DNA of 17,413 nucleotides from Actinomycetales bacterium (GTDB taxonomy: Bacteria > Actinomycetota > Actinomycetes > Actinomycetales > Cellulomonadaceae). Below, in pieces: positions 3,001-17,220 of this stretch. The stretch covers positions 1 to 17,413 of the forward strand of contig JAATES010000118.1 in assembly GCA_015655615.1 (NCBI GenBank), written 5' to 3'. The first letter of the stretch is position 1. Each line of letters begins with the position of its first letter. The translations under genes and the position numbers were made by a program. The notes under the pieces are model-generated. The model searched no databases. It was not told the origin of the DNA and saw nothing but the letters and a program-made list of their open reading frames with translations.

Positions 3001-3984
3001 CACTCGATCACGGCGGTCTTTGCCGGGGACGAGAAGTATCTCGGTTCCACGTCGGCCGCGGTCGTGGTGACCGTGACGGCCTCCATCGCCCCGGTCGCTC
3101 TGTCCACGTCGGCGACGACCCTCACGGATGCGGGCTCAGTCGAACTCGTGGCGACCGTCCCGGTGGCCGCGACCGGTACCATCGAGTTCCTCGACGGGAC
3201 CACACCCCTCGGTTCCGTGCCGGTCACGGCGGGGGCGGCGACCTTCACGGCCGTCCGCCTGGCGGTGGGGACGCACTCCATCACGGCGTCGTACTCCGGC
3301 GACGGGCACTTCGCCGCAGCCGTATCGACTGCGGCGGTGATGACCGTGACCAAGAGCGACGTTCCCAAGGGCAAGGTGACGCTGGCCAGGCCGGTCTTCT
3401 CCGCGTCCAGCCAGGTCTACAACACGACCAAGGCGGTCTCGGTCTCCACCACGGTCACCGGAGCCACAGCGGGGAGCGTCACCTTCAAGAGCGGCTCGAT
3501 CGTGCTCGGTACTGCCCCCATCAAGGCAGGCAAAGCCACACTGAAGCTCGCCGCAAAGCTCCGGATCGGTCGGTACGCCGCGGTGGCCACCATCGCTGAG
3601 GGCGATGCCACGGCTGCGGCGGTGTCGGTGACGTCGGCGACGTTCTCGGTCAAGAAGGCCACGCTGTCCACGCTCAAGGTGACGGGCAAGCCGTACACCA
3701 AGGGCAAGAAGTCCAAGGTCACCGTCATCGCATCGAAGACGCTGACCAACGGACGCAAGGCTGGTGGCACCGTGAAGGTGTCCGTGGGCAGGAAGGTCGT
3801 CAAGACCATCAAGACGTCGACACTGCGTAAGCATCATGGCAAGTACTCGGTCACTGTCCCGGCGAAGTTCGCCAAGGGCAAGTCGCTCAAGGTCACGGCG
3901 AAGTTCACGCCGAAGGCGAAGTCCAAGGCGACGACCACGACCAAGAAGGCGAAGACCCTGAAGCTCAAGGCAGCCAGACGCTGA
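1..3984 (+). CDS. Large secreted multidomain protein with discoidin-like, PKD and repeated bacterial Ig-like domains (5'-truncated)
   Basis: The reading frame is open from base 1 to the TGA at 3982-3984, so the start lies upstream; 1327 residues are visible. Residues 1-69 look like the end of an F5/8 type C (discoidin) carbohydrate-binding domain (GSQNGTDWTVLDTRT, then YRLSISATS). Residues 70-170 are an Ig-like domain. Residues 178-365 open with QFNNACLSELG, a domain often carried by actinobacterial secreted glycosidases such as GH92 types. Residues 380-467 are PKD-like (VNWGDETAV, HTYSEPGTYTVTVTVDDG). Seven Big_3-type Ig repeats of about 92 residues follow (469-1117), each with a (V/I)xFxDG-like core and a YxGDxxYxxSTS end; repeat 2 has FYSG in the core. 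An eighth, degenerate repeat covers 1118-1217. The last 110 residues are lysine-rich. No LPXTG or terminal membrane anchor is seen, so the basic tail may hold the protein to the wall electrostatically. The missing N-terminal part probably carries the signal peptide and a catalytic domain (inferred). Confidence 0.88.
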   Translation, partial: AAPKSWTLSGSQNGTDWTVLDTRTDEAFRWATQTRPFQLDTPATYAQYRLSISATSDGNPAKVAEFELLAGQISDADLTVYPSSVSARIGTAVTGSYALIAGGSSTDVSDYTATADFLDGNGPQAATVTSSGLGLQVKLPHTFTAPGAHSVLIAVTEDGETATGTSVVTVTRDQTLVGQFNNACLSELGVAANCDGLGYSYDKAQLATADNGALVQGVEHTVPGTSLTFTLPVIPSGSPDNILGEGQTVRLNVGTGATQYAFIGTANEGDQGGNATVTYSDGTTDTISIQFGDWVGKSGAPAFGNVVVAKIQTRLAGTGVEGANKTTAIYSTAPILIPSGKTPVFVTLPNKEGGLNQGKVHVFAVATDGTVAATPALVATPSTATVPNAYAGSPVTAQLATVTGGDTVVPVTASVNWGDETAVAGGTITEGTVSGTHTYSEPGTYTVTVTVDDGVHSTVTTRTITILDKVDPTVSVTGPSTSPTTTNTFALTATVPNDATGSVQFFDGATSLGSAPISSGVATLAAVGPLTAGSHAVTAVYAGDAKYNSVTSAATTVSVVKTSSAVVLSATPATPVVSADFTLTATVTAGATGTVTFYSGTVADGNQVSLGSAAITSGVATLSVTAPGTVGAKKYSASYAGDATYNSSESSVLSVNFASAPASINLTTTATTATPVSTVTATVQLSAGATGSVEFFDGTQSLGTVAVDGAAKAVTSLTGLTVGSHSIKAVYSGDSAFGGGTSNVVVIVSSLASSTTALATSASTATTTESVTLTATFTGPTTGAVEFFDGAESLGTATATGGTATKVVGSLSAGSHSFTAAFVANSSYAASTSAVTIVTVTKTSTTTTLTSSESSLTTLGSATFTAVVPAGASGTVQFLDGVTVLGTLPVSASVNSVQQSVTGLASGSHTITAVYSGDAVYTGSTSAGVVVTVTKASSSLTVVPDASERPAIGSSVLTAHFGDTGASGSVEFFDGTATLGTAAIGAGIATLNVGDLTTGAHSITAVFAGDEKYLGSTSAAVVVTVTASIAPVALSTSATTLTDAGSVELVATVPVAATGTIEFLDGTTPLGSVPVTAGAATFTAVRLAVGTHSITASYSGDGHFAAAVSTAAVMTVTKSDVPKGKVTLARPVFSASSQVYNTTKAVSVSTTVTGATAGSVTFKSGSIVLGTAPIKAGKATLKLAAKLRIGRYAAVATIAEGDATAAAVSVTSATFSVKKATLSTLKVTGKPYTKGKKSKVTVIASKTLTNGRKAGGTVKVSVGRKVVKTIKTSTLRKHHGKYSVTVPAKFAKGKSLKVTAKFTPKAKSKATTTTKKAKTLKLKAARR

Positions 3985-4069: not shown

Positions 4070-5359
4070 CTAGGCGTCGATCACGGGTTTTCCGGGCTCC
4101 GCTCCCGTGGCGACCGGGCGACCAGGCGTGTTCGACCACTGCGACCAGGATCCGGGATAGAGGGCGGCATCGACCCCTGCGATGGCGAGCGCGAGGATCT
4201 CATGCGAGGCGGTCACTCCGGACCCGCAGTAGACCGCGACCGGGTGGTCACCCGATGCGCCCAGTGAGGCGAACCGGGCGCGCAGGTCCGCGGGCGGAAG
4301 GAATCTGCCGTCCGGACCGACGTTGTGTGCTGTCGGCGCACTGAGCGCGCCCGGGATGTGTCCGGCGCGCGGATCGACCGGCTCGTCCTCGCCCTGATAC
4401 CTAGCCGCAGCCCGAGCATCCAAGAGCGTGCCGATCAGGGGGAACGCTGCTGCGCCGTCAGCGTCGATCACTCGTGCCGAGCCGTAGCCGGGCAAGGTGA
4501 CCCCACCGGACTCGGGGATCTCGTCCTCGGTGGACAGCGGCCTCCCGGCCGCCTGCCAGGCGGCGAGTCCGCCGTCGAGGACCCTGACGTTCTCCAGCCC
4601 CGCATGCCGTAGCAGCCACCAGCCGCGGGCCGCGGAAAGTCCTGGACCCGCGTCATACACCACCACCGCATCGCCGTCATTGAGGCCCCAGCGGCGAGCG
4701 GCCTGTTGCAGTCGATCGAGCGGCGGGAGCGGGTGCCGGCCTTCGCCTGGGTCGCCGATCGATGCCAGCTCGCCATCCAGGTCGACGTACGTGGCACCCG
4801 GGATGTGTCCGGCACGGTAGTCGGCATGCCCGTCGGGGCGATCAAGTGACCAGCGTACGTCGAGCAGCCGCAACGGCGGTCCGCTATGCGATGCCAGATC
4901 GGTTGCAGTGATCAACGGTGAAGCGGCGATCGCGGGGGCATCGGTGTCGGCATGAGGCCCTGCAGGCTCGGCGCGGTCGAGGGGGAGGCCTGCCGCGCGC
5001 CAGGCGGGGAAGCCACCCGCCACATGCTTCACATTCGTGAAGCCCCGGGCGACCAGCGCGGCGGCGACAGGACCCGAGCCGTTCACGGAGCCGCAGATCA
5101 CGATGAGCGAGCGGTCGCGCGTGTCAGGGTCATCGGCCTGCGAGAGGTCGAGCGAGTCTTCTAGGTGATAGCGGTCTGCAAGCACTGCCCCGGGAATCAG
5201 TCCATCATGGTCCCTTGAGTGATGTCCGCGTACGTCCAGGAGCAGGGATCCCGCTTTGATCCGGGCTGCTGCGGCGGGTGCGGAGATCAGCGGGGCCAAG
5301 GCGCCTGCCTCCTCCTCGCTGAGTTCGGTCGCCGGGGCCGTGTTCGTCAACTGCGGCAT
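4070..5359 (-). CDS. Three-domain rhodanese sulfurtransferase
   Basis: Rhodaneses move a sulfane sulfur from a donor such as thiosulfate or 3-mercaptopyruvate to an acceptor through a cysteine persulfide. This 429-residue protein has three rhodanese units. Residues 33-127 (LLLDVRG, then ICGSVNGSG) have a loop cysteine at C89. Residues 150-275 (LLDVRWSLDRPDG, GHIPGATYVDLD, VVVYDAGPG) are the usual inactive domain with Asp236 in place of cysteine. Residues 300-420 (LLDARAAARY, GHIPGALSAP, VAVYCGSGVTAS) carry the catalytic C378 in the CGSGVTA loop of thiosulfate/3-mercaptopyruvate sulfurtransferases. The common family form has only the last two domains (about 280 residues); the extra N-terminal unit with its own cysteine is unusual. 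The ATG at 5359 was chosen over an in-frame start at 5443 because AGGGAG lies about 7 bases upstream and the longer start would overlap the regulator gene. No signal peptide, so cytoplasmic. It follows the GntR gene by 31 bases and is probably cotranscribed with it. Both cysteines in the protein are the two active-site ones. Confidence 0.92.
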   Translation of the reverse strand: MPQLTNTAPATELSEEEAGALAPLISAPAAAARIKAGSLLLDVRGHHSRDHDGLIPGAVLADRYHLEDSLDLSQADDPDTRDRSLIVICGSVNGSGPVAAALVARGFTNVKHVAGGFPAWRAAGLPLDRAEPAGPHADTDAPAIAASPLITATDLASHSGPPLRLLDVRWSLDRPDGHADYRAGHIPGATYVDLDGELASIGDPGEGRHPLPPLDRLQQAARRWGLNDGDAVVVYDAGPGLSAARGWWLLRHAGLENVRVLDGGLAAWQAAGRPLSTEDEIPESGGVTLPGYGSARVIDADGAAAFPLIGTLLDARAAARYQGEDEPVDPRAGHIPGALSAPTAHNVGPDGRFLPPADLRARFASLGASGDHPVAVYCGSGVTASHEILALAIAGVDAALYPGSWSQWSNTPGRPVATGAEPGKPVIDA

Positions 5360-5390
5360 GGTGTGCTCCCTGAGTCTGAGTTCTGGTCGT

Positions 5391-6071
5391 TCACTGGAGT
5401 CCGTATGCGCCAGACTCCGCGATCGCACGTAGTCGTAGATCACGGGTTCGGCCCAGATGCGCGGTCATGAGCGTCCCCGCCGCATCGGCGTCATGTGCCG
5501 CGATGGCCTCGACGATCTTCGCGTGTTCGTCATAGGTCTGTGAGATGACCTCCCGACGGGCGACGGGGATGTTGTCCAACAGCCGGATCTGCAGCAGCAG
5601 CCCCGACAGGAGCGTGTCCAGGCTCGCGTTGTGCGCGGCTGCTCGCACCAGGCCATGGAAGGCGTCGTTGGCGGCGAAGTTCTTCGCGGCATCGTCTTGT
5701 TCCCCGGAAGAAGGCGGTTGCACCGCGTCGAAGAGTCGGGTGAGGTCGATCTCGTCACGACGTTGTGCCGCACTCCGGGCCGCGGTCGCCTCCAGAGCGA
5801 TGCGTACCTCGTAGATGTCGAGGATCTCCGCCGGGGTCGCTTCACGGACGCGATAGGAACGCCCGGAGCGGATCACCAAGCCGTCGGTCTCCAATCGTTG
5901 CAGAGCTTCGCGTATGGGGGTCCGCGATACTCCGAAACGTTCGCTGATGATGCTCTCGACCACCGGTTTGCCCCGGGGCACCACTCCGGAGACGATCTCC
6001 TCTCGTAAGCGGAGATAGGGCGAGGTGGCCTCGGGCGGCGAGGAGTCGTCGAGAAGCGATGTCACTGGCAC
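5391..6071 (-). CDS. GntR-family transcriptional regulator, FadR/FCD subfamily
   Basis: 226 residues, the normal length for this subfamily. Residues 17-77 form the winged helix-turn-helix; the recognition part ERFGVSRTPIREALQRLETDGLV is the hallmark GntR signature. The C-terminal FCD domain (about 82-215) holds the ligand and has the usual metal-site residues: N135/D136 with H139 (NDAFH), H183 (YDEH) and H205 (TAHL). The start is GTG at 6071, with AGAAGG 5 bases upstream; a second GTG two codons later is possible. FCD regulators are usually repressors released by an organic acid. It is transcribed away from the nine-gene catabolic operon across a shared control region, so it is probably the local regulator of that operon and of itself plus the sulfurtransferase behind it. 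The effector is unknown; a sugar acid or 2-oxo acid from the pathway is a reasonable guess. Confidence 0.93.
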   Translation of the reverse strand: MPVTSLLDDSSPPEATSPYLRLREEIVSGVVPRGKPVVESIISERFGVSRTPIREALQRLETDGLVIRSGRSYRVREATPAEILDIYEVRIALEATAARSAAQRRDEIDLTRLFDAVQPPSSGEQDDAAKNFAANDAFHGLVRAAAHNASLDTLLSGLLLQIRLLDNIPVARREVISQTYDEHAKIVEAIAAHDADAAGTLMTAHLGRTRDLRLRAIAESGAYGLQ

Positions 6072-6294
6072 AAGAACCTTCTTACACGATGTCCGGGCGG
6101 ACTGCGGGTGCGAACTGGCTGAGTCCTAGAATGTGGACGTTCTGCTGGTTGAGTATGCAGAGTCAGCTCACAGTATGCGATTGCACACGGTTGCGGCGGC
6201 TTCGGTATACGTAGAGTGGTGTTAGCACGCAGAACATCGCTTAGGTCCACAATATGAGATCTTCGCACACGATGTTTCGGTTCCGCCGCAGCAC

Positions 6295-6303
6295 TGATCT
6301 ACT
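6295..6303 (+). promoter_or_regulatory. Candidate extended -10 promoter giving a leaderless short ORF
   Basis: TGA-TCTACT (6295-6303) resembles an extended -10 element (TGn followed by TATAAT, 4 of 6 matches). The hexamer ends 6 bases before the A of the ATG at 6310, so transcription would begin at or next to the start codon and give a leaderless mRNA. No convincing -35 is seen (TTTCGG at 6275-6280, spacer 17). There is also no Shine-Dalgarno sequence at useful spacing before the ATG, which agrees with leaderless translation. Confidence 0.4.
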
Positions 6304-6309
6304 ACGAGC

Positions 6310-6375
6310 ATGGAAGCCACCGCCACCGCCACTGTCACGGTCAGCGTCACGCCTCGCTGCTGTTGTTGTCGCTAA
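6310..6375 (+). CDS. Cysteine-rich leader peptide (polycysteine short ORF)
   Basis: ATG at 6310 opens a 21-codon ORF that begins MEATATA, runs through a Thr/Val-rich stretch and ends TPRCCCCR before TAA (6373-6375). The four Cys codons are TGC TGT TGT TGT (6358-6369). An in-frame TGA at 6295 fixes the ATG as the only start. There is no Shine-Dalgarno sequence, and a -10-like element is placed for a leaderless transcript. Short leaderless ORFs with consecutive cysteines near the stop are known in actinobacteria, best studied in mycobacteria, as cysteine-responsive attenuators of sulfur-acquisition operons. A ribosome stalled on these codons when Cys-tRNA is scarce changes the downstream RNA fold. 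The same role is inferred here from layout: it precedes the nine-gene operon, and alternative stems follow it. A chance origin from a TGT repeat cannot be excluded. Confidence 0.65.
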   Translation: MEATATATVTVSVTPRCCCCR

Positions 6376-6520
6376 CGTGCGGGGTCGGCAGAGCTAGCTC
6401 CGCCCCCGGATGGCTGTCCCTGGCAGGCGGATGTGCTCGGCACTCGTGAGACCGATGTGCTCCTCTGGCCAGAGCCGGTCCCGCCTCGATCCGCCCCAGG
6501 GGGCGCCGAGCCCTTTGTTC
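6376..6520 (+). promoter_or_regulatory. Candidate cysteine-responsive transcription attenuator
   Basis: Hand folding finds four segments in the order of a classical attenuator. Segment 1 (GGGGTCGG, 6381-6388) pairs with segment 2 (6401-6407, CGCCCCC) to form a stem starting six bases after the leader-peptide stop. Segment 2 is perfectly complementary over 7 bases to segment 3 (GGGGGCG, 6499-6505). Segment 3 can instead pair with segment 4 (GCCCTT, 6510-6515, with two G-U pairs), a small stem running into TTTGTT (6514-6519) like a terminator. A ribosome halted on the Cys codons at 6358-6369 would cover segment 1 and leave segment 2 free to trap segment 3. A local alternative, CGCCC/GGGCG (6492-6496 with 6501-6505), also exists. 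No energies were computed. Confidence 0.4.
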
Positions 6521-6598
6521 CCATCCCAGCAACCTCTGATCGGCCCGCAGTCGCGATGACGACAGGCGGGGACGTCACTGCAGAAAGGCACCCGCGAC

Positions 6599-7411
6599 AT
6601 GTCACTGTCACTCGCGCACCTCACGGTGCTCGACGCTCGCACCGAGGATCTGATCCCGGCCGCGGCCGCGGGGGGATTCGATGGGGTGGGTGTGCGGATC
6701 TTTCCAGGGTCGAACCCGCCGTACGTGCGCCAGATCGTCGGAGACCGGGCACTGATCTCCACGCTGGTCGCCCAGAGCGATGACCTCGGCGTCCCGGTCA
6801 CGGACGTCGAGTCCTTCGTCATCGGTGAGTCCATCGACCGGGACCGGTTCGAGGCCGGACTGGAGACCGCTGCGGCACTGGGCGCGAAGCGGCTCCTTGC
6901 GGTCTCGTACGACCCGCAGCCAGATCGCTTGGTCGACTCGCTCGGCTGGCTGGCGCAACGGGCGGCGACCTACGGGGTGCGAGTCGGCCTGGAGTTCATC
7001 CCGTACTCGCAGCTGCGGACCCTTCCCGAGGCTCTCGCCGTGCTCGCAGCGGTGGATGATGCGAATGCCGCCCTGATCATCGACAGCCTGCACCTGAGCC
7101 GATCCGGAGGCTCACCCGGTGATCTGGCGGGATTGACCGCTCAGGACTACGCATTCGTCCAGATCAGCGACGCGAGGGCGGAAATCCCCTGGCGGGAGGA
7201 CCTGCCTGCGGAAGCTCGCACGGACCGCCTGCTGCCCGGCGACGGCACCTTGTGGTTGGACGCCTTGCTCGCGGCGCTTCCGGCCGGCGTGCCGCTCTCA
7301 CTCGAGGCACCGGTTCAGGAGCTGTCAGCGCTCCCTCCCCTCGAGCGCGCCCGGACCGCTGGACGACGTACTCGAGAGTATCTGGCCGCTCGGGGCGGCG
7401 ATCCGGCATAG
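6599..7411 (+). CDS. Sugar phosphate isomerase/epimerase family TIM-barrel protein
   Basis: 270 residues, typical of the xylose-isomerase-like (AP_endonuc_2) TIM barrel. Members isomerise or epimerise sugars and ketoses, or dehydrate related compounds, using one divalent metal. The metal-site residues are visible: E132 (GLEFIP), D162 and H165 (IIDSLHL), Q188 (VQISDA), R210 in the R..PGDG motif, and E236 (LSLEAP). ATG at 6599 has AAAGG 10 bases upstream. There is no signal peptide, so it is cytoplasmic. It is the first gene of the operon and lies directly after the leader. It contains no cysteine and no methionine beyond the initiator. The substrate cannot be read from sequence. A sugar, inosose or sugar-acid intermediate made next to the dehydrogenase gene is likely; myo-inosose isomerase/dehydratase-like and 3-keto-sugar enzymes are alternatives within the family. 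Confidence 0.88.
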   Translation: MSLSLAHLTVLDARTEDLIPAAAAGGFDGVGVRIFPGSNPPYVRQIVGDRALISTLVAQSDDLGVPVTDVESFVIGESIDRDRFEAGLETAAALGAKRLLAVSYDPQPDRLVDSLGWLAQRAATYGVRVGLEFIPYSQLRTLPEALAVLAAVDDANAALIIDSLHLSRSGGSPGDLAGLTAQDYAFVQISDARAEIPWREDLPAEARTDRLLPGDGTLWLDALLAALPAGVPLSLEAPVQELSALPPLERARTAGRRTREYLAARGGDPA

Positions 7412-7481: not shown

Positions 7482-8297
7482 ATGACAACCATCGCCATCA
7501 CTGGGGCAGCCGGAGCAGTCGGCAGGCTGCTGACCCGGGAACTGAGCTCCGACTACGACCTGATCCTGTCCGACATCGTCCCGCTGCCGGATGGTGGGGA
7601 CAGCGGCTTCCCGTTTCACCTGACCGATGTCTCGGACTTCGACGCCGTGCGCCGGGCGCTCGACGGCGCGGATGCCGTCATTCACCTAGGGGGGCTGTCC
7701 TCGGAGGCCTCGTTCGAGGAGACCTTGCAGGCGAACATCGTGGGTACCCGCAACGTGTTCGAGGCGAGCCGCCAGCTGGGCATCGAGCGGGTGGTCTTCC
7801 CCTCCTCCAATCAGGCTGTCGGCTTCTACCGCAAACAGCGCGACCTCGGAACCGACATCACCGTGCGGCCCAGCGGGTGGTACGGCGTGTCCAAGGCCTT
7901 CGGGGAGTCAGTCGGTGCGTTGTACGCGGACAAGTTCGGCTTGCGGGTCTTCGTGATCCGCATCGGCCGTCATGCCCCGCTGCCGGAGAACATTCGCGGG
8001 CTGTCGATCTGGATCAGCGAAGAGGACCTCGTCCAGCTGGTTCGCATCGGACTGGAGCACCCGGATGTCCACTACGAGATCGTCTACGGCGTCTCAGACG
8101 ACGTCCGCAGCTACTTTCGCAACGATCGTGCGTATGAGCTCGGCTACCGTCCGGTCTCCCGCGCCGAGGATCACGTCGATCACGCGTACGCCCACGAGAA
8201 CGACCGGCCACCGATCGGCCCGGTCGGTGACCGCTACATCGGCGGGCGCCTGCCGGCAATGGACTATGTGGGCGATCCGAACCGTTCCGGCCGCTGA
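7482..8297 (+). CDS. NAD-dependent epimerase/dehydratase family protein, uronate dehydrogenase-like
   Basis: 271 residues with an N-terminal Rossmann fold (TGAAGAVG, residues 7-14; acidic D31 ending strand 2, favouring NAD over NADP) and the short-chain dehydrogenase catalytic pair Y134/K138 (YGVSKAFGES). Landmarks shared with bacterial uronate dehydrogenases are HLGGLS (68-73), PSSN (107-110) and ENIRGLSIWIS (169-179), whose R172 matches the arginine that grips the substrate carboxylate. In those enzymes RIGS carries a substrate-contacting serine; here it is RIGR (R163), so the substrate may differ. Uronate dehydrogenase oxidises glucuronate or galacturonate at C1 to an aldarolactone. The gene follows the isomerase after a 70-base gap. 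The best ribosome site, AAGGA at 7463-7467, is 14 bases from the ATG, which is long, but the conserved N-terminus fixes this start. There is no cysteine, and only two methionines. Family assignment is firm; uronate as substrate is tentative. Confidence 0.88.
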   Translation: MTTIAITGAAGAVGRLLTRELSSDYDLILSDIVPLPDGGDSGFPFHLTDVSDFDAVRRALDGADAVIHLGGLSSEASFEETLQANIVGTRNVFEASRQLGIERVVFPSSNQAVGFYRKQRDLGTDITVRPSGWYGVSKAFGESVGALYADKFGLRVFVIRIGRHAPLPENIRGLSIWISEEDLVQLVRIGLEHPDVHYEIVYGVSDDVRSYFRNDRAYELGYRPVSRAEDHVDHAYAHENDRPPIGPVGDRYIGGRLPAMDYVGDPNRSGR

Positions 8298-8368: not shown

Positions 8369-10006
8369 ATGATCACCCAGACCAGGGCGGCACGACGTCC
8401 CGCCCGCGTTCGCACCCGACTAGCTGCCGTAGCGGCCTCGGCCGCCGCCATCGCACTGCTGGCGGCGTGCGGATCAGGTAGTACCGCCGGCTCGAGCACG
8501 TCCTCATCAGCGGCCGCACCGGTGGCGGGCGGGACCTACGTGCATGCCATCGAGGGCCTCGTCACGTGCCTCGATGGAGCGCAGCAGGCGAACCACTGGA
8601 ATCTCAATGTGATTCGCCAGCTCGTCGACTCCCTGGTGGACGTCGACCCGGACACCGGGGAGATCGTCCCCTGGATCGCCGAGAGCTGGGACATCTCAGA
8701 CGATGCCAGCGAATTCACCTTCCACCTTGTCGACGGTGCCACGTTCAGCGATGGCACGGCCATCGACGCCGACGCGGTGGTGGCGAACTTCGCGCGCATC
8801 GCCAAGCTCGGCGCCCAGGCGAGCGGCGCCAGCCCCTGGTTCTCCGACTACAAGGATTCAGAGGCCGTCGACGCCTCCACGGTGAAGGTGACGTTCTCGC
8901 GGCCCAACGCCCAGTTCCTCGAGGCGGTCGCCAACTCGTGGTTCGGATTGATCTCACCGGCGGACCTCAAGGTCAAGACGCCTGAGCAGCTCTGCGCCGG
9001 CGACTATGCAGGGTCGGGTCCGTTCGTCCTGGACAACCTGGTCGAGAACCAGGAGGTCGATCTGGTCAAGCGCACGGGCTATGACTCCCCTTCCTCACTC
9101 GCCAAGCATGAGGGTGACGCCTACCTCGACAAGCTCGTCTTCAAAGAGGTGACGGAGAGCAGCGTCCGCGCAGGTCTGGTGACGTCGGGGGAGGCGAACT
9201 CCGCCTCCGCCATCGCCTGGCAGGACGAGCAGACCGTCGCGGCGTCCGGTTCGCTGCTCACTGCGAATCAGCCCGGCATCACTGAGACCTGGATCGTCAA
9301 TCAGGAGTCCTGGCTCTATGACGACGAACCCGTCCGGCAGGCGATCAAGTATGCGATCAACAGCCAGGAGGTCATCGACACCGTCTACGGGCCGACCTTC
9401 AGCCCCCGTAGCAGTGTCATCACCAAGACGACACCCGGGTATACAGATCTGAGTGCGGATCTGGCCTTCGACCCCGACAAGGCGAATCAGTTGCTGGACG
9501 CGGACGGCTGGGCCAAGGGAAGCGACGGGGTCCGGACCAAGAACGGCACCCGGCTCTCGGTCAACGTGATCGCAGTGACCACGGATCTGGAGATCCTGCA
9601 GCAGCAGTTGGCTGCGGTGGGGATCGAGTACAAGATCCGCCAGCTCGACGGTGCCAGCTACGGCGAAGCACAGAAGTCGGGTGACTACGACATCATCGCC
9701 TGGACCATGACGCGCGCAGATCCGTCCGTGCTCGCTGCGGCCTTCGCCTCCGGAGATGGTGCGTTGAGCTGGGCGAATGCCAAGCCGTCGGACTTCGACG
9801 ATGTCCTGGCGACTCTGCAATCCACCGTTGACCAGACCAAGCGAGCCGAGATCGCGGCTGCCGCCCAGAAGTACCTGATCGAGAACGCCTGGGCGATTCC
9901 GATCGTCGACCGCGCTTGGACCTATGGCCTCGCCAAGACCTCGCAGGGCCTGCGGCTGGACGGTGAGACCCGCTTGGTGTTCTACGACACCTCGGTCAGC
10001 AAGTGA
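8369..10006 (+). CDS. Family 5 (oligopeptide/nickel-type) ABC transporter substrate-binding lipoprotein
   Basis: 545 residues, the normal length for SBP_bac_5 proteins. The N-terminus is a lipoprotein signal: arginine-rich residues 1-17, a hydrophobic stretch, and the lipobox LAAC with C34 to be lipidated, then a Ser/Gly/Ala linker. Typical family segments follow: LVDVDPDTGEIVPWIAESWD, FHLVDGATFSDGTAIDADAV, GSGPFVLDN, DEPVRQAIKYAIN and the PIVDRAW C-terminal part. AAGGAGA (8352-8358) lies 10 bases before the ATG, the clearest ribosome site in the operon. Its stop overlaps the next gene's start (GTGA). It captures the substrate outside the membrane for the permeases encoded next. Family 5 proteins bind peptides but also oligosaccharides, opines, nickel chelates and glutathione-like thiols, so the name 'peptide-binding' should not be taken literally. 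Beyond the lipobox there are only two cysteines and one internal methionine. Confidence 0.94.
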   Translation: MITQTRAARRPARVRTRLAAVAASAAAIALLAACGSGSTAGSSTSSSAAAPVAGGTYVHAIEGLVTCLDGAQQANHWNLNVIRQLVDSLVDVDPDTGEIVPWIAESWDISDDASEFTFHLVDGATFSDGTAIDADAVVANFARIAKLGAQASGASPWFSDYKDSEAVDASTVKVTFSRPNAQFLEAVANSWFGLISPADLKVKTPEQLCAGDYAGSGPFVLDNLVENQEVDLVKRTGYDSPSSLAKHEGDAYLDKLVFKEVTESSVRAGLVTSGEANSASAIAWQDEQTVAASGSLLTANQPGITETWIVNQESWLYDDEPVRQAIKYAINSQEVIDTVYGPTFSPRSSVITKTTPGYTDLSADLAFDPDKANQLLDADGWAKGSDGVRTKNGTRLSVNVIAVTTDLEILQQQLAAVGIEYKIRQLDGASYGEAQKSGDYDIIAWTMTRADPSVLAAAFASGDGALSWANAKPSDFDDVLATLQSTVDQTKRAEIAAAAQKYLIENAWAIPIVDRAWTYGLAKTSQGLRLDGETRLVFYDTSVSK

Positions 10007-10974
10007 CATCGGTCCTTGCCTACTCCGGAAGGCGGCTCCTCGCGGCGGCGTTCGTCGTGTGGGCCGCCTTCACGGTGTCCTTTGTGATCCTCTATGCGTT
10101 ACCCAGCGACCCCGTCCAGATGATGCTCGCACGCGGGGGCGATGCCAGCCTCGACGAGTCGGCCGTCCAGGCGGTGAGGCATGAGTATGGCTTCGATCGA
10201 CCGGTGATCGTGCAGTACTTCGCGAGGTTGGGTGCGGCGGTCACGGGAGATCTTGGCACGTCGATGCAAACCGGGCGGTCGGTGCTCGTCTCGATCGGCG
10301 ATGCGCTGCCGCAGACGCTCGCTCTGGCCGGGCTGGCGCTGGCCATCGCCATCGTGGTCGCCCTGCTGGTCTCCTGGGCGGCGACGCTGGCTCCGTTCGC
10401 GGTGCTGCGCGAGCTGGCGCTGGGGCTGCCGCCGCTAGGCCGAGCGGTTCCCAGCTTCTGGCTCGGACTGGTCCTGTTGCAGATCTTCGCCTTCCAGCTG
10501 GGATGGTTCCCCGCGACCGGGAACACGGGGTGGCGATCCCTGGTGTTGCCGGCGGTCAATCTGTCGGTTCCCGTGGCAGTTGTGCTGGCTCAGGTCATGA
10601 TCCAGTCGTTCCGTAGTACCTGGACCGCCCCGTTCGTCGAGGTCCTGCGGGCCAAGGGCCTACGGCAGTTCCGGATCCAGGTACGACACATCATGCGGCA
10701 CAGCCTCGCCCCGACTCTCACTGTCCTCGGCGTGGTGACCGGTGCCATGCTGGCGGGTTCGATCGTCACGGAGACGGTGTTCTCTCGCAGCGGCGTCGGC
10801 CAGCTGACCCAGCAGGCGGTCACGAGCCAGGACCTACCGGTCATTCAGGGGGTCGTCGTGCTGTCCGCGGTGGTGTTCAGCGTGGTCAATCTGGCCGTGG
10901 ACCTGGTGCACCCGCTGATCGATCCACGGGTCCTGTCGCGTCCGCTGGGACGGAGAAGGCCGGTGGCCGTATGA
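10003..10974 (+). CDS. ABC transporter permease, DppB/OppB type
   Basis: 323 residues. It has an N-terminal membrane helix (LLAAAFVVWAAFTVSFVILY), then a periplasmic part with the DppB-family pattern ALPSDPVQMMLARGG and HEYGFDRPVIVQYF, then the BPD_transp_1 core with about five more helices. The cytoplasmic EAA loop that docks on the ATPase is at FVEVLRAKGLRQFRIQVRHIMRHSLAPT. The family motif GxxxxETVFSRxGVGQL is seen as GSIVTETVFSRSGVGQL. The GTG start at 10003 overlaps the previous stop, and the end overlaps the next start as ATGA, so translation is probably coupled. With the partner permease it forms the membrane channel of the importer. It contains no cysteine. Confidence 0.94.
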   Translation: MTSVLAYSGRRLLAAAFVVWAAFTVSFVILYALPSDPVQMMLARGGDASLDESAVQAVRHEYGFDRPVIVQYFARLGAAVTGDLGTSMQTGRSVLVSIGDALPQTLALAGLALAIAIVVALLVSWAATLAPFAVLRELALGLPPLGRAVPSFWLGLVLLQIFAFQLGWFPATGNTGWRSLVLPAVNLSVPVAVVLAQVMIQSFRSTWTAPFVEVLRAKGLRQFRIQVRHIMRHSLAPTLTVLGVVTGAMLAGSIVTETVFSRSGVGQLTQQAVTSQDLPVIQGVVVLSAVVFSVVNLAVDLVHPLIDPRVLSRPLGRRRPVAV

Positions 10975-11879
10975 CTGGTGACGTCACGTCTGCCGAGGAG
11001 GCCCGACCTGAGCCAGAGCCGGACGACACCGGCCGATTCCGCCCTGCCCGCCGGGGCAGCCGTCGGCTGTCGTTCCGCCTCGACGTCTGGACCGCGGTCC
11101 TCTCCTTCGCGATCGTGCTCGTCGTCCTGTGCTGGATCGTGCTTCCGGGGCTGTTCGCCTCGGGATCGCCGATCACCGCGGTCCCGCATGATCGCCTCCT
11201 TGAACCCTCCTGGGCACACCTGTTCGGCACCGACTCGTTGGGGCGGGACCTCTTCACGCGTGTGGTGCACGGGGCACGGACCTCGTTGAGCGCGGCTGGT
11301 CTGGCCGTTGCCATCGGCCTGGTGATCGGATCTGTCACCGGAATCGTCTGCGGGTTCTTCGGCGGTCGTCTCGACGCCGTGGTGATGCGGGTTGTCGATG
11401 TCCTCCTGGCCATCCCTGATCTTCTCTTGGCTATGGCCCTCGTCGCGGCACTGGGATTCGGCACGGTGCAGGTCGGCGTGGCAGTCGGGGTGTCCTCGAT
11501 CGCGTCCTTTGCCCGTCTGTCACGTTCGGAGGCACGGCGTGTGAGCGCCTCGACCTACGTCGAGGCCGCAAGGGTGGGAGGGGTGCGTCCCAGCGGGGTG
11601 CTGTGGCGACACGTGCTGCGAGGCTCCCTCGGTCCGGTCCTGGCGCTGGGAGCCCTGGAGATCGGCAGTGCGATCCTCGCTGTCGCAGCGCTGAGCTTTC
11701 TGGGCTACGGGACGCCACCTCCGACGCCGGAGTGGGGAACGCTGATCTCCGATGGGCGCAACTACATCTCAAGCGCCTGGTGGCTGACCGTGCTCCCTGG
11801 CCTGGTCATCATGTTGCTGGTCCTCTCCGTCAACCGGCTGAGCAGACTGCTGGACCGCCAGATCGGAGTACGCAGATGA
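10971..11879 (+). CDS. ABC transporter permease, DppC/OppC type
   Basis: 302 residues. A basic, proline-rich cytoplasmic N-terminus of about 35 residues precedes the first membrane helix (VLSFAIVLVVLCWIVLPGLF). The DppC hallmark FGTDSLGRDLFTRVVHGARTSL follows, then the transport core with the EAA loop at YVEAARVGGVRPSGVLWRHVL and the conserved end LSFLGYGTPPPTPEWGTLI. ATG at 10971 overlaps the preceding TGA, and its own TGA overlaps the ATG of the ATPase gene. It pairs with the upstream DppB-type protein. There is nothing unusual in length or motifs. Confidence 0.94.
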   Translation: MTGDVTSAEEARPEPEPDDTGRFRPARRGSRRLSFRLDVWTAVLSFAIVLVVLCWIVLPGLFASGSPITAVPHDRLLEPSWAHLFGTDSLGRDLFTRVVHGARTSLSAAGLAVAIGLVIGSVTGIVCGFFGGRLDAVVMRVVDVLLAIPDLLLAMALVAALGFGTVQVGVAVGVSSIASFARLSRSEARRVSASTYVEAARVGGVRPSGVLWRHVLRGSLGPVLALGALEIGSAILAVAALSFLGYGTPPPTPEWGTLISDGRNYISSAWWLTVLPGLVIMLLVLSVNRLSRLLDRQIGVRR

Positions 11880-13522
11880 CGTCAGCCCACCTGAAGACTT
11901 CCACGGAGGTGCTCTCCGTCCGTGGCCTGGCCGTGGACTACCAGACCCGTGCCGGAACGACGACCGCGCTGCGGGGTGTGGACCTTCACGTGCATCGCGG
12001 CGAGGTCGTCGCACTGGTGGGAGAGTCCGGTTCTGGCAAGTCGACGCTCGGGAGAGCGGTGATCGGGCTGCTGGCGGCCAATGCCGCTCCAGCGCAGGGC
12101 GCTGTGGACTTCGAGGGCACGGCCCTGCTGGGGTTGTCCGAGCGGAAGCTGTCCCGCATCCGGGGGCGTCGCATCGGATTCGTCCCGCAGGACCCGTCCG
12201 TGTCGCTGGACCCGCTCAAGCGGGTGGGGGAGCAGGTGGCCGAGACGCTGCGAGTCCATGGGGTCGCTGATCGCCGTCAGGCACGAGACCAGGCGGTGCA
12301 GGTTCTGGAGAGGGCAGGCGTGGACCGTCCGGGTCTGCGGGCGGGTCAGTACCCCCACGAGCTCTCCGGCGGGATGTGCCAGCGTGTCTTGATAGGCATG
12401 GCGCTTGCCTGCGAGCCGACTCTGGTCATCGCAGATGAACCGACCTCGGCGCTCGACGTGACCGTCCAGCGGGTGATCCTTGACTACCTCACCGAGGCGG
12501 TCGCGCAGCACGAGGCTTCGTTGCTTCTGGTCACCCACGATCTCGCAGTCGCGGCCGAGCGTGCGGACCGGATCGTGGTCATGCAGGGCGGTCTCGTCGT
12601 AGAGACGGGCACGAGCCGGCAGATCCTGACCGATCCCCGCGAGCCTTACACGCGCCGGCTGCTGGAGGCGGCCCCATCCTTGGGACGTGCACGTGCACGC
12701 ACCCGGTCGGTCGCATCCGGGACAGCTGCCAGGGGACTGGTCCCAGCGGAACCGGCCGTCGTCCTCGGCACGGTGGGGTTGTCGAAGACCTTCGGTGCAG
12801 GAGACCACGCCGTCCACGCCGTCACGGACGTGGCCATCGGGGTGCGCCGCGGGCAGACCAGAGCCGTCGTGGGCGGCTCCGGTTCCGGCAAGACCACTCT
12901 TGGCCGGCTGATCCTGCGCCTTGTCGAGCCGACGTCCGGCGCGATTCTGGTCGATGGTGACGACATCAGCGGGGTCGAGGGCGCTGAACTCCGCCGGTTG
13001 CGTCGCCGGATCCAGCTGGTGTACCAGAACCCCTTCTCATCTTTGAGCCCCTTCCTGGACGTCGAGCGGATGATCGAGGAGCCGCTGCGCGCGTTCGGGA
13101 TCGGCAGCAGGCGGGAACGTGCGCAACGGGTCGCGGAGGCCCTCTCCCGGGTGGCACTGCCCCAGCAGGTGCTCCGCCGGAGGGCAGCAGAGCTCTCCGG
13201 GGGGCAGCAGCAACGGGTCGCCATCGCCCGTGCCTTGATCGTGGACCCGGAGGTGATCGTGCTCGATGAGCCGACCTCGGCCCTCGACGTCTCAGTGCAG
13301 GAGCAAGTCCTCCAGCTGCTCACGAGCTTGCAGGATGACAGTGGTCTGAGCTATCTGTTCATCTCGCACGATCTCGCGGTCGTGCGGCAAGTGGCCCACG
13401 ACGTCAGCGTGATGCACCTCGGGAGGATCGTCGAGGAGGGCCCGACGGATCAGATCTTCGACTCCCCTGCCCATCCCTACACCCGCGAACTGCTGGATTC
13501 CCTCCCACGGTGGGAGCCATGA
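11876..13522 (+). CDS. Fused two-domain ABC transporter ATPase (DppD-DppF type)
   Basis: 548 residues with two complete nucleotide-binding domains in one chain, replacing the separate D and F subunits of classical dipeptide importers. Domain 1 has Walker A GESGSGKST (49-57), signature LSGGM (163-167), Walker B LVIADE (183-188) and the switch VTHDL (219-223). Domain 2 has GGSGSGKTT (333-341), LSGGQ (440-444), VIVLDE (460-465) and ISHDL (496-500). Each domain ends with the oligopeptide-type tail (PREPYTRRLLEAAP at about 254-267; PAHPYTRELLDSLP at 531-544). The ATG at 11876 overlaps the previous stop as ATGA. The frame stays open upstream to 11603 but that part lies inside the permease gene and is not coding. 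It powers the importer from the cytoplasmic side. Fused forms are common in actinobacteria. Confidence 0.95.
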   Translation: MTSAHLKTSTEVLSVRGLAVDYQTRAGTTTALRGVDLHVHRGEVVALVGESGSGKSTLGRAVIGLLAANAAPAQGAVDFEGTALLGLSERKLSRIRGRRIGFVPQDPSVSLDPLKRVGEQVAETLRVHGVADRRQARDQAVQVLERAGVDRPGLRAGQYPHELSGGMCQRVLIGMALACEPTLVIADEPTSALDVTVQRVILDYLTEAVAQHEASLLLVTHDLAVAAERADRIVVMQGGLVVETGTSRQILTDPREPYTRRLLEAAPSLGRARARTRSVASGTAARGLVPAEPAVVLGTVGLSKTFGAGDHAVHAVTDVAIGVRRGQTRAVVGGSGSGKTTLGRLILRLVEPTSGAILVDGDDISGVEGAELRRLRRRIQLVYQNPFSSLSPFLDVERMIEEPLRAFGIGSRRERAQRVAEALSRVALPQQVLRRRAAELSGGQQQRVAIARALIVDPEVIVLDEPTSALDVSVQEQVLQLLTSLQDDSGLSYLFISHDLAVVRQVAHDVSVMHLGRIVEEGPTDQIFDSPAHPYTRELLDSLPRWEP

Positions 13523-13559
13523 GCAGCCCGGCAGGTACCAACCAGAATTGGAGGACATC

Positions 13560-14615
13560 ATGACGCGCTACGTGATCATCGGAGCCGGGGGAGTGGGGAC
13601 GTCGTTGGCCGCGCAATTCGCCCTCAGCGGTGTCCCTTATGTGCTGGTGGCCCGGCCGCCGGGCAGTGCGATCCTGCGGGAGCGGCCCCTGGAGTACCGG
13701 CAGCCGCACGGGGTGACGCACGTCCCTGTGGAGGTCGCCGAGGGGCCTCATGACGTGCAGCTGACCGACGATGACGTGCTGGTGCTCGCCACGAAGGCGC
13801 AGGACGTCGAGGCGGTGTTGCGGGACTGGGCGTGGCAGCCGGTGACGGGCACCGTCGGTGGGGATGCCAGTGCACTGCCCATCGTCCTGCTGCAGAACGG
13901 CCTGGATGCCGAGCGTGCAGCGCTGCGCCGGTTCGAGACCGTGATCGGCGGCTCGGTGCGCACACCGGCGAGGTACGTGGAACCAGGTGTGGTCGACGTG
14001 GCCGCCTCGCACCCGGTGGCGGCCATTCTGCTGGGGAGGTACCCGCAGGGAGCCCACCCGGCGGTCGACACGGTGGCTGCGGACCTCAGGCGCGCGGACT
14101 ATGCGGTGCAGACCACGCAGGAGATCCAGCGGTGGATGGCAGAGAAGCTACTGCGCAGTGTCACGCTAGCGCTCGATGTGTTCCCCGGGGCGGACGCGGC
14201 GCGTGGCGCGCTCGGCTCATTGCTGACCGCGGAGGCCGCGGCGGCACTGCAGGCCGCCGGGATCTCGCCGCAGTCTCCTACGTCGTTGACAGCGGAAGCA
14301 CGCAGCTATGCGATGGTCCCTGGTACGGGATACCAACCCGGCCAACGCTCGACGTGGCAGAGCGTTGCCCGGGGCTCCGGGTCGGTGGAGACGGACTATC
14401 TCAATGGCGAAGTGGTGCTGCTGGGACGTCTGCACGGAATCCCGACCCCGGCCAACTATGTCATCCAGCGGGCGCTCGGAGCTTTGGTGCGGGACGCTGC
14501 GGCCGGATTCGACCGACAGCGCACTGAGGTGGGCATCCTGTTCGAACGCGCCACCGCGAGCACGAGTGCGGTCTCCGTGAGCTCATCCGAGCAGACACAG
14601 GAGGCATCCCTGTGA
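13560..14615 (+). CDS. Ketopantoate reductase-family (ApbA/PanE-like) 2-oxo acid reductase
   Basis: 351 residues. The N-terminal Rossmann motif is IIGAGGVG (6-13), followed by ATKAQD (77-82) and LLQNGL (110-115), the standard cofactor and substrate elements of the 2-dehydropantoate 2-reductase family. The C-terminal helical domain has the catalytic lysine K196 (MAEKLLRS) and the conserved stretch ETDYLNGEVV with E277, plus S264 and GIPTPAN (293-299). The usual KLxxN asparagine is Ser200 here. GGAGG (13550-13554) lies 5 bases before ATG 13560; an in-frame TTG at 13548 would place the ribosome site inside the gene and is rejected. A 37-base gap follows the ATPase gene, and the stop overlaps the esterase start. 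A role in pantothenate synthesis is unlikely in this setting. Reduction of a 2-oxo acid or oxo-sugar-acid of the pathway is more plausible (inferred). No cysteine. Confidence 0.87.
   Translation: MTRYVIIGAGGVGTSLAAQFALSGVPYVLVARPPGSAILRERPLEYRQPHGVTHVPVEVAEGPHDVQLTDDDVLVLATKAQDVEAVLRDWAWQPVTGTVGGDASALPIVLLQNGLDAERAALRRFETVIGGSVRTPARYVEPGVVDVAASHPVAAILLGRYPQGAHPAVDTVAADLRRADYAVQTTQEIQRWMAEKLLRSVTLALDVFPGADAARGALGSLLTAEAAAALQAAGISPQSPTSLTAEARSYAMVPGTGYQPGQRSTWQSVARGSGSVETDYLNGEVVLLGRLHGIPTPANYVIQRALGALVRDAAAGFDRQRTEVGILFERATASTSAVSVSSSEQTQEASL
14599..14604 (+). promoter_or_regulatory. Ribosome binding site fixing the GTG start of the carboxylesterase
   Basis: AGGAGG, a perfect consensus, sits 7 bases before GTG 14612, which overlaps the TGA of the reductase gene. 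It decides the start because GTG is the only start codon at suitable spacing. Confidence 0.8.
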
Positions 14616-16096
14616 CGGAGGGGCCTCTAGGACGACAGAGCGTCAGGGCCACGACACGGGTCCGGGTGGCCCAGGGCGTGCTCGATGGGGTGACGGAGGG
14701 CGGTGTCCAGACGTTTCTCGGCGTGCCCTATGCGGCAGCGCCGGTGGGCGATCGCCGCTTCCTGCCACCCGAGCCTGCTCCGGCATGGCCGGGGTCGCGT
14801 GAGGCGACCCGGCCTCCGGCTCCTGCGATGCAGCCCCGGTTGATCGCAGGAGTACCTCCGGCTTCCGAGGATTGCCTCTACCTCAACATCTGGGCACCGG
14901 AAGCTCCCGGAAGCTACCCCGTGCTGGTGTACTTGCACGGCGGGGGCAACTATTTCGGCTATAGCTTGTCCGACGACCAGCCGGGGGTCTCCTTCGCCCG
15001 CGACTCCGTGGTCTGCGTGACGGTGGGTTACCGCCTGGGAGCCTTCGGGTTCCTGGAGCTGGGCTCGATTCTGGGTCCGCGATACCGGGGATCGGCCAAC
15101 AACGGGCTGCGGGACGTCCTGGCTGCACTCACCTGGGTACACGACAACATCACGGCCTTCGGCGGTGACCCGTCCCGGGTCACCCTCGGAGGGATCTCGT
15201 CAGGAGCGTTCAACGTCTGCTCCTTGCTCAGCTCTCCGCTGTCGACGGGCCTCTTCCAGCAGGCGATCGCCCAAAGTGGCGGCGGACATGCCGTGTTCGA
15301 CCTCGCAGAGGCCGATGCGGCGGCCGCTCAATTCGTCGCCGGGCTGGCAGCCGAGGATCTGGGACCCGCCGATCTGCTGCGTGTCGACGCCGCGCGGCTG
15401 ATCGCCGTGCATGACGGCAACGTCGGGCACGGCGTCATCGACGGCGAGGTCCTGACCGGCATTCCTGCCGCTGAGGTGGCGTGGGGAGCAGGCAGGGAGG
15501 TGACCTTGCTCATCGGTTCGACTCGGGACGAGATGGCCTCCCTGGGGGGGAGCGGCGAGATCGGGGAGTACGAGGAGGATGTCGCTGCCTTGTACGAGCG
15601 TGTCGCACCCCATCTCGATGCCTCAAGCCGGGAGCAGGCCGTCCTCGAGTTCGTGTCCGCGCTGCGGCATGGGGCGTCCTCCTTCGTCGTCGGGCACGCG
15701 CACGCCGCCGCTGGCGGAACGAGCTTCGTCTACCGCTGGGAGCATGAGGCCGACTCCGGTCCGTATGCAGGACTCGCCGCCCACGGAAGCGAGCAGCCCT
15801 ATGTGTGGAGCAGCTCCGCGTCCGAGGAGGGCGGAGCCTCGCCCCGGTCGCTCGCACGACGCGTGCATCGTCGCTGGACGGACTTCGTGACGCAGGGCTC
15901 ACCGGGGGATGACTGGCCGAGGTGGCTTCCGGAGGATCGCGGCTACTTGTCGATCGCGCAGGACGATGGGGTGCGCAACTATCCCGGCGGCCTCCTGGAC
16001 GTGTGGCTGTCCACGCCTGACGCGTTACGGCCCAAGGTCCGGTTCAGTGGCGCCTGGCTTCCCCCTCGCAAGCCTGCAGCGACCAGGGCTCGCTGA
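14612..16096 (+). CDS. Type-B carboxylesterase (alpha/beta hydrolase)
   Basis: 494 residues, the usual length for bacterial carboxylesterase/p-nitrobenzyl-esterase proteins. Family landmarks: FLGVPYAAAPVGDRRFLPP (35-53), SEDCLYLNIWAP (85-96), the oxyanion loop HGGG (109-112), GYRLGAFGFL (139-148) and NNGLRDVLAALTWVHDNITAFGGDP. The triad is Ser196, Glu307 (STRDEMAS) and His391 (HGSEQPYVW). The nucleophile elbow reads GGISSGA instead of the common GESAG, so the Glu before the serine is Ile. There is no signal peptide, so it acts inside the cell, cutting an ester, or less likely a lactone, of the imported compound. That fits a pathway where an ester-linked conjugate enters through the ABC importer and is split before oxidation. 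Overlapped start suggests coupling to the reductase gene. The exact ester is unknown. Confidence 0.92.
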   Translation: MTEGPLGRQSVRATTRVRVAQGVLDGVTEGGVQTFLGVPYAAAPVGDRRFLPPEPAPAWPGSREATRPPAPAMQPRLIAGVPPASEDCLYLNIWAPEAPGSYPVLVYLHGGGNYFGYSLSDDQPGVSFARDSVVCVTVGYRLGAFGFLELGSILGPRYRGSANNGLRDVLAALTWVHDNITAFGGDPSRVTLGGISSGAFNVCSLLSSPLSTGLFQQAIAQSGGGHAVFDLAEADAAAAQFVAGLAAEDLGPADLLRVDAARLIAVHDGNVGHGVIDGEVLTGIPAAEVAWGAGREVTLLIGSTRDEMASLGGSGEIGEYEEDVAALYERVAPHLDASSREQAVLEFVSALRHGASSFVVGHAHAAAGGTSFVYRWEHEADSGPYAGLAAHGSEQPYVWSSSASEEGGASPRSLARRVHRRWTDFVTQGSPGDDWPRWLPEDRGYLSIAQDDGVRNYPGGLLDVWLSTPDALRPKVRFSGAWLPPRKPAATRAR

Positions 16097-16156
16097 CCCA
16101 GAGCGCAGATCAAGGGCGCCGACACCGTGCGGACCCGGAATGTCAGAGAGATATCT

Positions 16157-16163
16157 GGAGGAG
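16157..16163 (+). promoter_or_regulatory. Ribosome binding site supporting a TTG start for the FAH-family gene
   Basis: GGAGGAG lies 6 bases before TTG 16170. The alternative in-frame ATG at 16140 has only a poor CCGGA-like sequence before it, so TTG is preferred. Confidence 0.6.
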
Positions 16164-16169
16164 ATCACG

Positions 16170-17030
16170 TTGGTACAGGTGGGTAGCGCATCAGGACGTC
16201 TGGTCGCGAGCCTGGGTGGTCAGTGGGCCGATGTCGCGAGGCTCAGTGGAGGTCGCTTCGGGCCGGATCCGCAGGCGCTCTATGCGCGCTGGGACGAATT
16301 CACCACATGGTGGTCGTCCATGAAGCCGGAATCAGGTGAGGGCGACGAGGACCTGGCCGGAGTGCCGGACAGCAATCCGCTCCCCGGGGCCCGCCAGGTC
16401 CTGGCGGTCGGAATGAACTTCGGGAACAAGCGGGAGCGGCAGGCCGTCGACACTCCTCACGATGTCGCCGGCGCCGTCAAGCTGCTGTCCTCGCTGACCG
16501 GTCCAATGGATCGGATCGGCATCGACAGCGATGACGTCGTGCTGGATGCTGAAGTCGCGGTCGTGGTCAAGGCCCCGATCGAACGCGCACGGGAACGGGA
16601 TGTGACCGATCTCATCGCGGGCCTGGTCCTCGGGCTCGACCTCGTCGACCGTCGGTCGGTGGTGCGTCTCGATATGGGTGCGGGCGTGGTCTCCTACCTC
16701 AATCCCGGGAAGTCCCGGCCGGGCTTCACGCCGCTCGGACCCTACGTCGTGGGGCTCGATGAGGTCCCAGACCTCGACGACGTGGATTTCTTCCTCGACA
16801 TCAATGGCCGGCGAGTGCAGCAGGGCAGCACCAGCGACGCGTTGTTCAGCCCCCTCGAGGTGGTGGCCAGGCTCAGCCGCAAGATCACCCTGTTGCCCGG
16901 AGACGTCATCCTCCTGGGAGGAGGAGGCAATCTGCCGGGCGTGACTGTCCCTCCGCTCGCGGTCGGGGACGTGCTCACCGCTGGCTCGTCGCTGCTCGGC
17001 AATCAGCGTCATGTGATCGTGTCAGCATGA
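16170..17030 (+). CDS. Fumarylacetoacetate hydrolase (FAH)-family protein with altered active-site residues
   Basis: 286 residues from TTG 16170 (316 if started... at ATG 16140, 10 residues longer, 296). FAH-fold enzymes cleave, hydrate or decarboxylate 2-oxo and beta-diketo acids with Mg2+. The core is clear: VLAVGMNFGNKRER (78-90), SSLTGP, DAEVAVVV (126-133), LGLDLVDRR (154-162), GKSRPGFTPLGPYVV (180-194), INGRRVQQGSTSDALFSPLEVVARLS and LLPGDVILLGGG. Metal ligands appear as D126/E128 (usual ExE) and D157. Two changes stand out: the usual NYxxH has Lys87 in place of the His, and the usual TGTP is LGGG (249-252). Activity may be changed. It follows the esterase by 73 bases and is the last gene of the operon. 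It probably handles a late 2-oxo-acid intermediate (inferred). No cysteine. The exact start is less sure than the gene itself. Confidence 0.88.
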   Translation: MVQVGSASGRLVASLGGQWADVARLSGGRFGPDPQALYARWDEFTTWWSSMKPESGEGDEDLAGVPDSNPLPGARQVLAVGMNFGNKRERQAVDTPHDVAGAVKLLSSLTGPMDRIGIDSDDVVLDAEVAVVVKAPIERARERDVTDLIAGLVLGLDLVDRRSVVRLDMGAGVVSYLNPGKSRPGFTPLGPYVVGLDEVPDLDDVDFFLDINGRRVQQGSTSDALFSPLEVVARLSRKITLLPGDVILLGGGGNLPGVTVPPLAVGDVLTAGSSLLGNQRHVIVSA

Positions 17031-17117: not shown

Positions 17118-17192
17118 TGGTGGGCGATACTGGGATCGAACCAGTGACCTCTTCCGTGTCAGGGAAGCGCGCTACCGCTGCGCCAATCGCCC
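17118..17192 (-). tRNA. tRNA-Val (anticodon GAC), CCA encoded
   Basis: On the minus strand, the acceptor strands GGGCGAT and ATCGCCC pair over 7 bases. The D-arm has GGCGCAGCGGTAGCGC, the anticodon stem-loop is CTTCC-CTGACAC-GGAAG with GAC, and the T-arm is CTGG-TTCGATC-CCAG. The discriminator is A, and the CCA end is encoded (17118-17120). It is the last tRNA of the cluster in transcription order. Confidence 0.96.
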
Positions 17193-17220
17193 AAAGCAAC
17201 CTGCCTCAATGCCAACTGCG

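Follow-up and report, generated by a model that had tools for sequence, protein, structure and literature searches.

Short open reading frames (ORFs) that are rich in cysteine codons are known from several Actinobacteria. Polycysteine leaderless short ORFs were described in mycobacteria by Canestrari et al. 2020, according to passages in the papers that cite this work (PMC9094748, PMC9031893, PMC13236596). Leaders with runs of Cys codons were also reported by Seliverstov et al. 2005 (PMC1262725) before cys operons (Mycobacterium, P. acnes) and before cbs (B. longum); for the cys operons, that work put forward shielding of the RNA behind the leader from Rho. In Table 4 of PMC8079986, the metL leader of Streptomyces lividans (MSTTSDRTPATEATTTPGARCMCRRMCAF) is taken as Met/Thr-dependent; its peptide has three Cys close to the end, and a role as a cysteine leader is conceivable.

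Here, we describe a candidate cysteine leader ORF in a member of the Cellulomonadaceae. The stretch of DNA analyzed, referred to as the window, is 17,413 nucleotides long and contains the ORF upstream of an operon with an ABC transporter and sugar-acid-type enzymes. The ORF probably encodes the leader peptide in a control region that responds to cysteine, and the transporter of the downstream operon would import a sulfur-bearing compound. The main reason to take the ORF as a probable cysteine leader is that transporters of this clade are preceded by independent cysteine leaders in other genera.

The candidate leader ORF

The ORF (6310..6375, + strand) is composed of 21 codons and encodes MEATATATVTVSVTPRCCCCR followed by a stop. 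ATG 6310 is the sole possible start; the same frame is shut by TGA 6295-6297, 12 nt 5' of the ATG, and the complete open frame around the ORF is STTSMEATATATVTVSVTPRCCCCR. The end of the ORF (6358..6375) is Cys4-Arg-stop, TGC TGT TGT TGT CGC TAA, with the Cys codons at 6358-6369, the Arg codon at 6370-6372, and the stop TAA at 6373-6375. It is co-directional with the operon, and 223 nt lie between its stop and gene 1 (6599). The earlier note had described a 21-codon ORF with four Cys codons, an Arg codon and a stop, a single ATG, and no Shine-Dalgarno (SD) sequence, and the sequence agrees with this description in full.

How often such an ORF arises was estimated with dinucleotide shuffles of the intergenic region (6072-6598). 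A Cys4 ORF with at most two codons after the run was found in 0 of 20,000 shuffles, and one with at most ten codons after the run appeared once in 20,000. Three Cys codons with at most five codons to the stop occurred in 0.2% of shuffles, and a run of four of any residue beside the stop in 1.3% of 3,000. The position of the Cys run beside the stop and the 20,000 shuffles support the claim that the ORF resembles a polycysteine leader.

On the scale of genomes, the pattern is less striking. The window's own genome shows no enrichment of Cys4 codon runs, with 19 matches compared to 25 for the reversed pattern that served as a control. In 200 genomes of the family, CCCC-R-stop was found 21 times, and 19 of these are inside called genes; outside called genes, it is found only in the window and at L084 (G480:C124:7103-7120), which is a 28-codon ATG ORF. 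In the window's genus, a Cys3-stop pattern has 37 matches versus 35 for the control, and no further Cys-run leader was found among the 30 of these 37 sites that were inspected. A Cys3-stop ORF on a contig of G267 was dropped as a leader candidate. A Cys4-stop ORF is rare at a given place, and a few are expected among hundreds of genomes; therefore, the context must carry the leader claim.

The main alternative is that low-complexity GCCACC/GTCACG units followed by TGT units produced the ORF by chance and that the divergent GntR regulator alone controls the operon. The lack of enrichment of Cys4 runs in the genome favors this explanation, as does a look-alike Cys3-stop ORF in the same genome (L206, MGGMHSTAHCEAVVDDVASVRGAGAPSCCC), which lies before a gene that, as judged by eye, is ileS and no sulfur gene. 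Moreover, the finding was chosen as striking among an unknown number of windows. The shuffles of the region speak against chance, and a chance ORF would also have to coincide with a transporter clade that independently bears cysteine leaders in ten genera. We consider a chance origin unlikely and the ORF a probable cysteine leader.

The operon and its divergent neighbors

The nine genes of the operon are all on the + strand. Gene 1 (6599..7411) encodes a xylose-isomerase-like TIM barrel (AP_endonuc_2), and gene 2 (7482..8297) an NAD-dependent dehydrogenase whose nearest solved relatives are uronate dehydrogenases (3rft, E 1.9e-49). Gene 3 (8369..10006) encodes an SBP_bac_5 solute-binding protein that is TIGR04028-like (304.1 bits, cut-off 468.5). 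This is followed by two permeases, gene 4 (10003..10974) and gene 5 (10971..11879), and by a fused two-domain ABC ATPase, gene 6, for which the listed ORF is 11603..13522 and the true start is probably at ~11.88 kb. The remaining genes encode a ketopantoate-reductase-like protein (ApbA; gene 7, 13548..14615), a member of the carboxylesterase family (gene 8, 14612..16096), and a member of the FAA hydrolase family (gene 9, 15909..17030, true start probably ~16.1 kb). Solved relatives of gene 9 include the HpcE-like 6v77 and the L-2,4-diketo-3-deoxyrhamnonate hydrolase 8gsr. The count of nine given in the earlier note holds if the fused ATPase is counted once, and the gene families and solved relatives bear out its remark that the enzymes look like sugar-acid catabolism.

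On the opposite strand are a divergent GntR/FCD regulator (5391..6071) and a triple-rhodanese sulfurtransferase (4070..5443) whose ORF overlaps that of the regulator. The sulfurtransferase is 3-mercaptopyruvate-sulfurtransferase-like (153 bits, cut-off 250), and its third rhodanese domain carries CGSGVTA. Elsewhere in the window, 55-3984 (+) codes for a large surface-type protein that contains eight Big_3_5 Ig-like stretches, and three tRNA genes (17121-17413, -) lie at the opposite contig end from it.

The genome has a second locus of interest. Here, a rhodanese (60% identical), a LysR regulator, two FMN monooxygenases, and a binding protein of the same kind are found in a row; one monooxygenase is SsuD-like, and the other scores above the NtaA/DmoA family cut-off. 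On contig C4, an ORF with two single Cys (MPHAPQTPRASLAAAAACRPRLPRRPTAPARCLPQG, L043:3387-3497) starts 7 nt after a TACTCT, a leaderless-like arrangement, and is located ahead of this rhodanese/monooxygenase/binding-protein locus.

None of the other genomes searched was found to have the operon. For gene 1, a search of 59 relatives gave a best match of 35%; for gene 7, 200 family genomes were searched, and the best match (48%) is a second copy in the window's own genome. Gene 3 was looked for in genomes of the order (396), the class (394), and the family (221), and no operon orthologue was obtained. Nearer homologues are known from short contigs, a gene-1 relative at 65% (P0122, contig of 1,893 bases) and a gene-3 relative at 82% (P0002, contig of 3,166 bases). 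When the genome contigs were scanned for gene 3, a single-sequence scan gave no match, and an alignment scan gave five loci, all with the transporter and none with other window genes. The best gene-3 orthologues in the genomes searched are from Cellulomonas (60-63%) and are alone or beside monooxygenases, with the rest of the operon absent. No ORF with two Cys was found upstream of these orthologues, and L039 has upstream just an ORF of 23 codons that contains one Cys. That these orthologues of the binding protein have no cysteine leader is a further point in favor of a chance ORF. The earlier note's refuting case, a related genome with the operon and no in-frame Cys run, is not represented by them because they lack the operon.

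Cysteine leaders before relatives of the binding protein

Cysteine leaders precede the transporter clade of gene 3 in many genera. Short Cys ORFs were found upstream of 18 of 59 gene-3 relatives (L147 was left out as too short), where shuffles predict 5.5; before distant control binding proteins, 3 of 20 loci had one, and 2.2 were expected. A similar picture emerged when ORFs were required to have an SD and were counted by residue at 74 loci: 17 were found for Cys, four for Met, one each for His, Phe, and Glu, and none for Trp, Tyr, Lys, Asn, Gln, or Asp. One of the 17, L043, was discounted because its short Cys ORF sits inside a monooxygenase gene. The distant controls had SD-led Cys ORFs at 2 of 20 loci, and these two, which belong to a single genus, encode an identical nonapeptide. 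The two genomes (L121 and L126, g52) carry an SD-led MCAALCERA before a distant SBP_bac_5 protein, which may be a cysteine leader in its own right.

Among 36 loci from the window's own family, 11 have a Cys leader ORF, and all 11 are SD-led compared to 0.1 expected with an SD; at the other 25, none was found. These 36 are from 38 stretches, two of which (L293 and L302) were left out because of their short length. By genus, five leaders are from g6, three from g23, two from g16 (identical), and one from g9. Across both sets, which share four cases under different locus ids, SD-led cases occur in ten actinobacterial genera (g63, g38, g139, g189, g155, g138, g9, g23, g6, and g16). The leaders of the own family end in CCR-stop, ACR-stop, or SCR-stop, and a distance of 172-310 nt separates their ends from the binding-protein match, comparable with the 223 nt in the window. 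In the three g23 genomes, the leader drifts in its middle part and CTGTTGTCGCTGACAC (CCR-stop) is invariant, which is close to CTGTTGTTGTCGCTAAC in the window. The exact Cys-Arg-stop end of the window's ORF is also present in 11 of the 28 distinct accepted leaders of relatives. A point against the leader reading is that, in the window's operon, the gene for the binding protein comes third and not first.

Several leaders of relatives match the NCBIfam models NF042934, NF042936 (Ms4527A), and NF042933 (Ms5788A), and 3 of 10 are above the NF042934 cut-off; none of seven Cellulomonadaceae leaders matched an NCBIfam model. The leaders of g23 (L303, L304, and L271) and g6 (L270, L274, L277, L284, and L305) form two unannotated Cellulomonadaceae cysteine leader families that are unrelated to the NCBIfam models, and those of g6 come after a CCTATC...GATAGG inverted repeat that has the appearance of an operator. 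At L098 (5260-5361), the leader MNRGPLLTSARWVDLLRVSSACC is found before an SsuD-like monooxygenase and scores 24.2 bits with NF042934, slightly below the cut-off. In Propioniciclava flava (L040), MTVIAHRLAAVLAPTMLSMPCCRCC (8374-8451, ending PCCRCC-stop, SD AGGAG) precedes an aminotransferase, whose frame is apparently split, and a binding protein. A hairpin at 8474-8488 with a 6-bp G+C stem and then a T-rich stretch are located 3' of this leader. The terminator scan did not call the hairpin, and L040:8374-8505 resembles a classical cysteine attenuator.

Link of the transporter clade to sulfur

The neighborhoods of the gene-3 clade point to sulfur. An FMN monooxygenase is near the binding protein in 21 of 29 clade regions and in 9 of 20 regions around distant SBP_bac_5 controls. 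With a threshold of at least 380 bits, an L039-type monooxygenase is found in 17 of 29 clade regions (including L039, the query) compared to 1 of 20 controls. By genus, the contrast of the strong L039-type matches is small (4 of 10 clade genera and 1 of 8 control genera).

The sulfur role of the operon thus rests on the transporter clade and on the rhodanese neighbor. The earlier note had proposed that the operon serves sulfur supply. A link to sulfur is supported for the transporter, given the cysteine leaders of its clade in ten genera, the FMN monooxygenases, and the divergent triple-rhodanese gene; for all nine genes, whose enzymes are sugar-acid-like, a role in sulfur supply is what we infer. 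A broader and more tentative proposal is that the TIGR04028-like clade could be a widespread, uncharacterized importer of organic sulfur in Actinomycetota. This importer would be under cysteine leaders of unrelated sequence that converge on Cys-(Arg)-stop, and here it would be joined to a uronate-dehydrogenase-type pathway and scavenge sulfur from a sugar-acid-like compound.

Translation start signals

The start signal at ATG 6310 is the weakest point of the leader reading and counts in favor of a chance ORF. No SD precedes this ATG, and no TANNNT or GANNNT hexamer ends 5-9 nt upstream of it. The earlier note's term 'leaderless' is not supported: the sole hexamer at leaderless spacing, TCTACT (6298..6303, +), 12-7 nt before the ATG, is a poor -10 element that lacks the conserved A at position 2 and failed the consensus test. 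TANNNT occurs in 6072-6598 only at 6127, 6212, and 6373. Transcription may therefore begin far upstream, at 6212, in which case the ORF would depend on an unusual start. Neither form of recognizable start signal, SD or leaderless promoter, was thus found at ATG 6310 by a consensus scan that could miss an atypical start. Among leaders of relatives, 13 of 15 checked have an SD or a leaderless hexamer.

Possible mechanisms of control

The untranslated leader from the ORF stop to the first gene is 223 nt (6376..6598, +). Within it, GCGATGACGACAG (6553..6565, +) pairs in the predicted RNA with the Cys codons (6360-6372) at probabilities of 0.80-1.0. The predicted helix has 13 bp, of which ten are Watson-Crick and three are G-U, and its duplex energy of -23.7 kcal/mol is equalled by 3.2% of 2,000 shuffles. 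AGAAAGG (6582..6588, +) is the probable SD of gene 1. The predicted fold of 6310-6640 does not exceed shuffled sequences in stability (z 0.58). In 14 relatives, base pairing between Cys codons and downstream RNA is no common feature (fractions 0.087-0.96), and Cys-codon/SD pairing as a general mechanism is not borne out in them. A terminator scan of 6072-6598 gave one weak site (0.2 expected), inside the ORF, with a stem at 6342-6359 of five pairs only, then CTGTTGTTGT, so that the Cys codons are the tail. That the TGT run acts as RNA, either as the U-rich tail of this hairpin or as an arm of the helix with 6553-6565, is favored by this single site and by long-range pair probabilities near 1, but is highly improbable given the five-pair stem, the unexceptional fold of the whole region, and the relatives, which keep Cys codons before stops and not the pairing with downstream RNA.

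For the leader reading, a mechanism can be proposed. When Cys-tRNA is scarce, the ribosome would slow on the four Cys codons just before the stop, and the slowed ribosome would permit expression of the operon. Two outputs are conceivable: the parked ribosome may shield the RNA just after the stop codon from Rho, or it may free the ribosome-binding region of gene 1. In the tna operon of E. coli, a parked ribosome hides the RNA just past the stop codon from Rho. Shielding from Rho fits the window at least as well as pairing because the Cys run touches the stop codon. Translation, stalling, the dependence on cysteine, the substrate, and a choice between the two outputs are what we infer from the sequence.

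If the leader reading is true, an orphan transporter clade annotated merely as peptide/nickel uptake would be tied to sulfur supply, and a sulfur-bearing substrate would be predicted for an operon that resembles plain sugar-acid catabolism. The comparison also shows that cysteine leaders are quickly replaced by one another; thus, a search for Cys codons before stops, below the level of weak sequence similarity, can assign function where profile models find nothing.

Comparison with known leader systems

A classical transcription attenuator has an intrinsic terminator with a competing antiterminator; in the window, the scan gave one weak terminator-like site within the ORF itself, and the fold is unexceptional. 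The window peptide was compared with the NCBIfam leader models NF042933, NF042934, and NF042936, and no family was matched at E values up to 10 or reached the cut-off. NF042934 is a cis_reg_atten putative leader of the RRHVDL type that, in other families, is found before members of the same binding-protein clade. Among 61 family genomes, a profile search found it in 20 at E <=0.01, with 12 above the cut-off. In contrast, the RRHVDL core is absent from the window peptide, and the model was found in none of four genomes of the window's genus. The RRHVDL codon pattern in the 61 family genomes is above the control, yet all 30 loci examined are inside called genes, and it was not taken as leader evidence.

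The mycobacterial polycysteine ORFs (NF042933, Ms5788A; NF042936, Ms4527A) are likewise short, have Cys near the stop, and are located before a sulfur-tied operon, as the window's ORF probably is, and leaders of the same transporter clade give weak matches to their models. The window differs from them in operon content and in having no clear leaderless promoter. The leaders described in PMC1262725 are also alike: they are short ORFs whose Cys codons lie close to the stop, an obvious terminator is absent, and Rho was proposed. They precede cysteine biosynthesis genes, whereas the window has an oligopeptide-type ABC transporter and sugar-acid enzymes. The ORF is best read as a leader of a known kind that senses cysteine, with a new sequence and a new operon.
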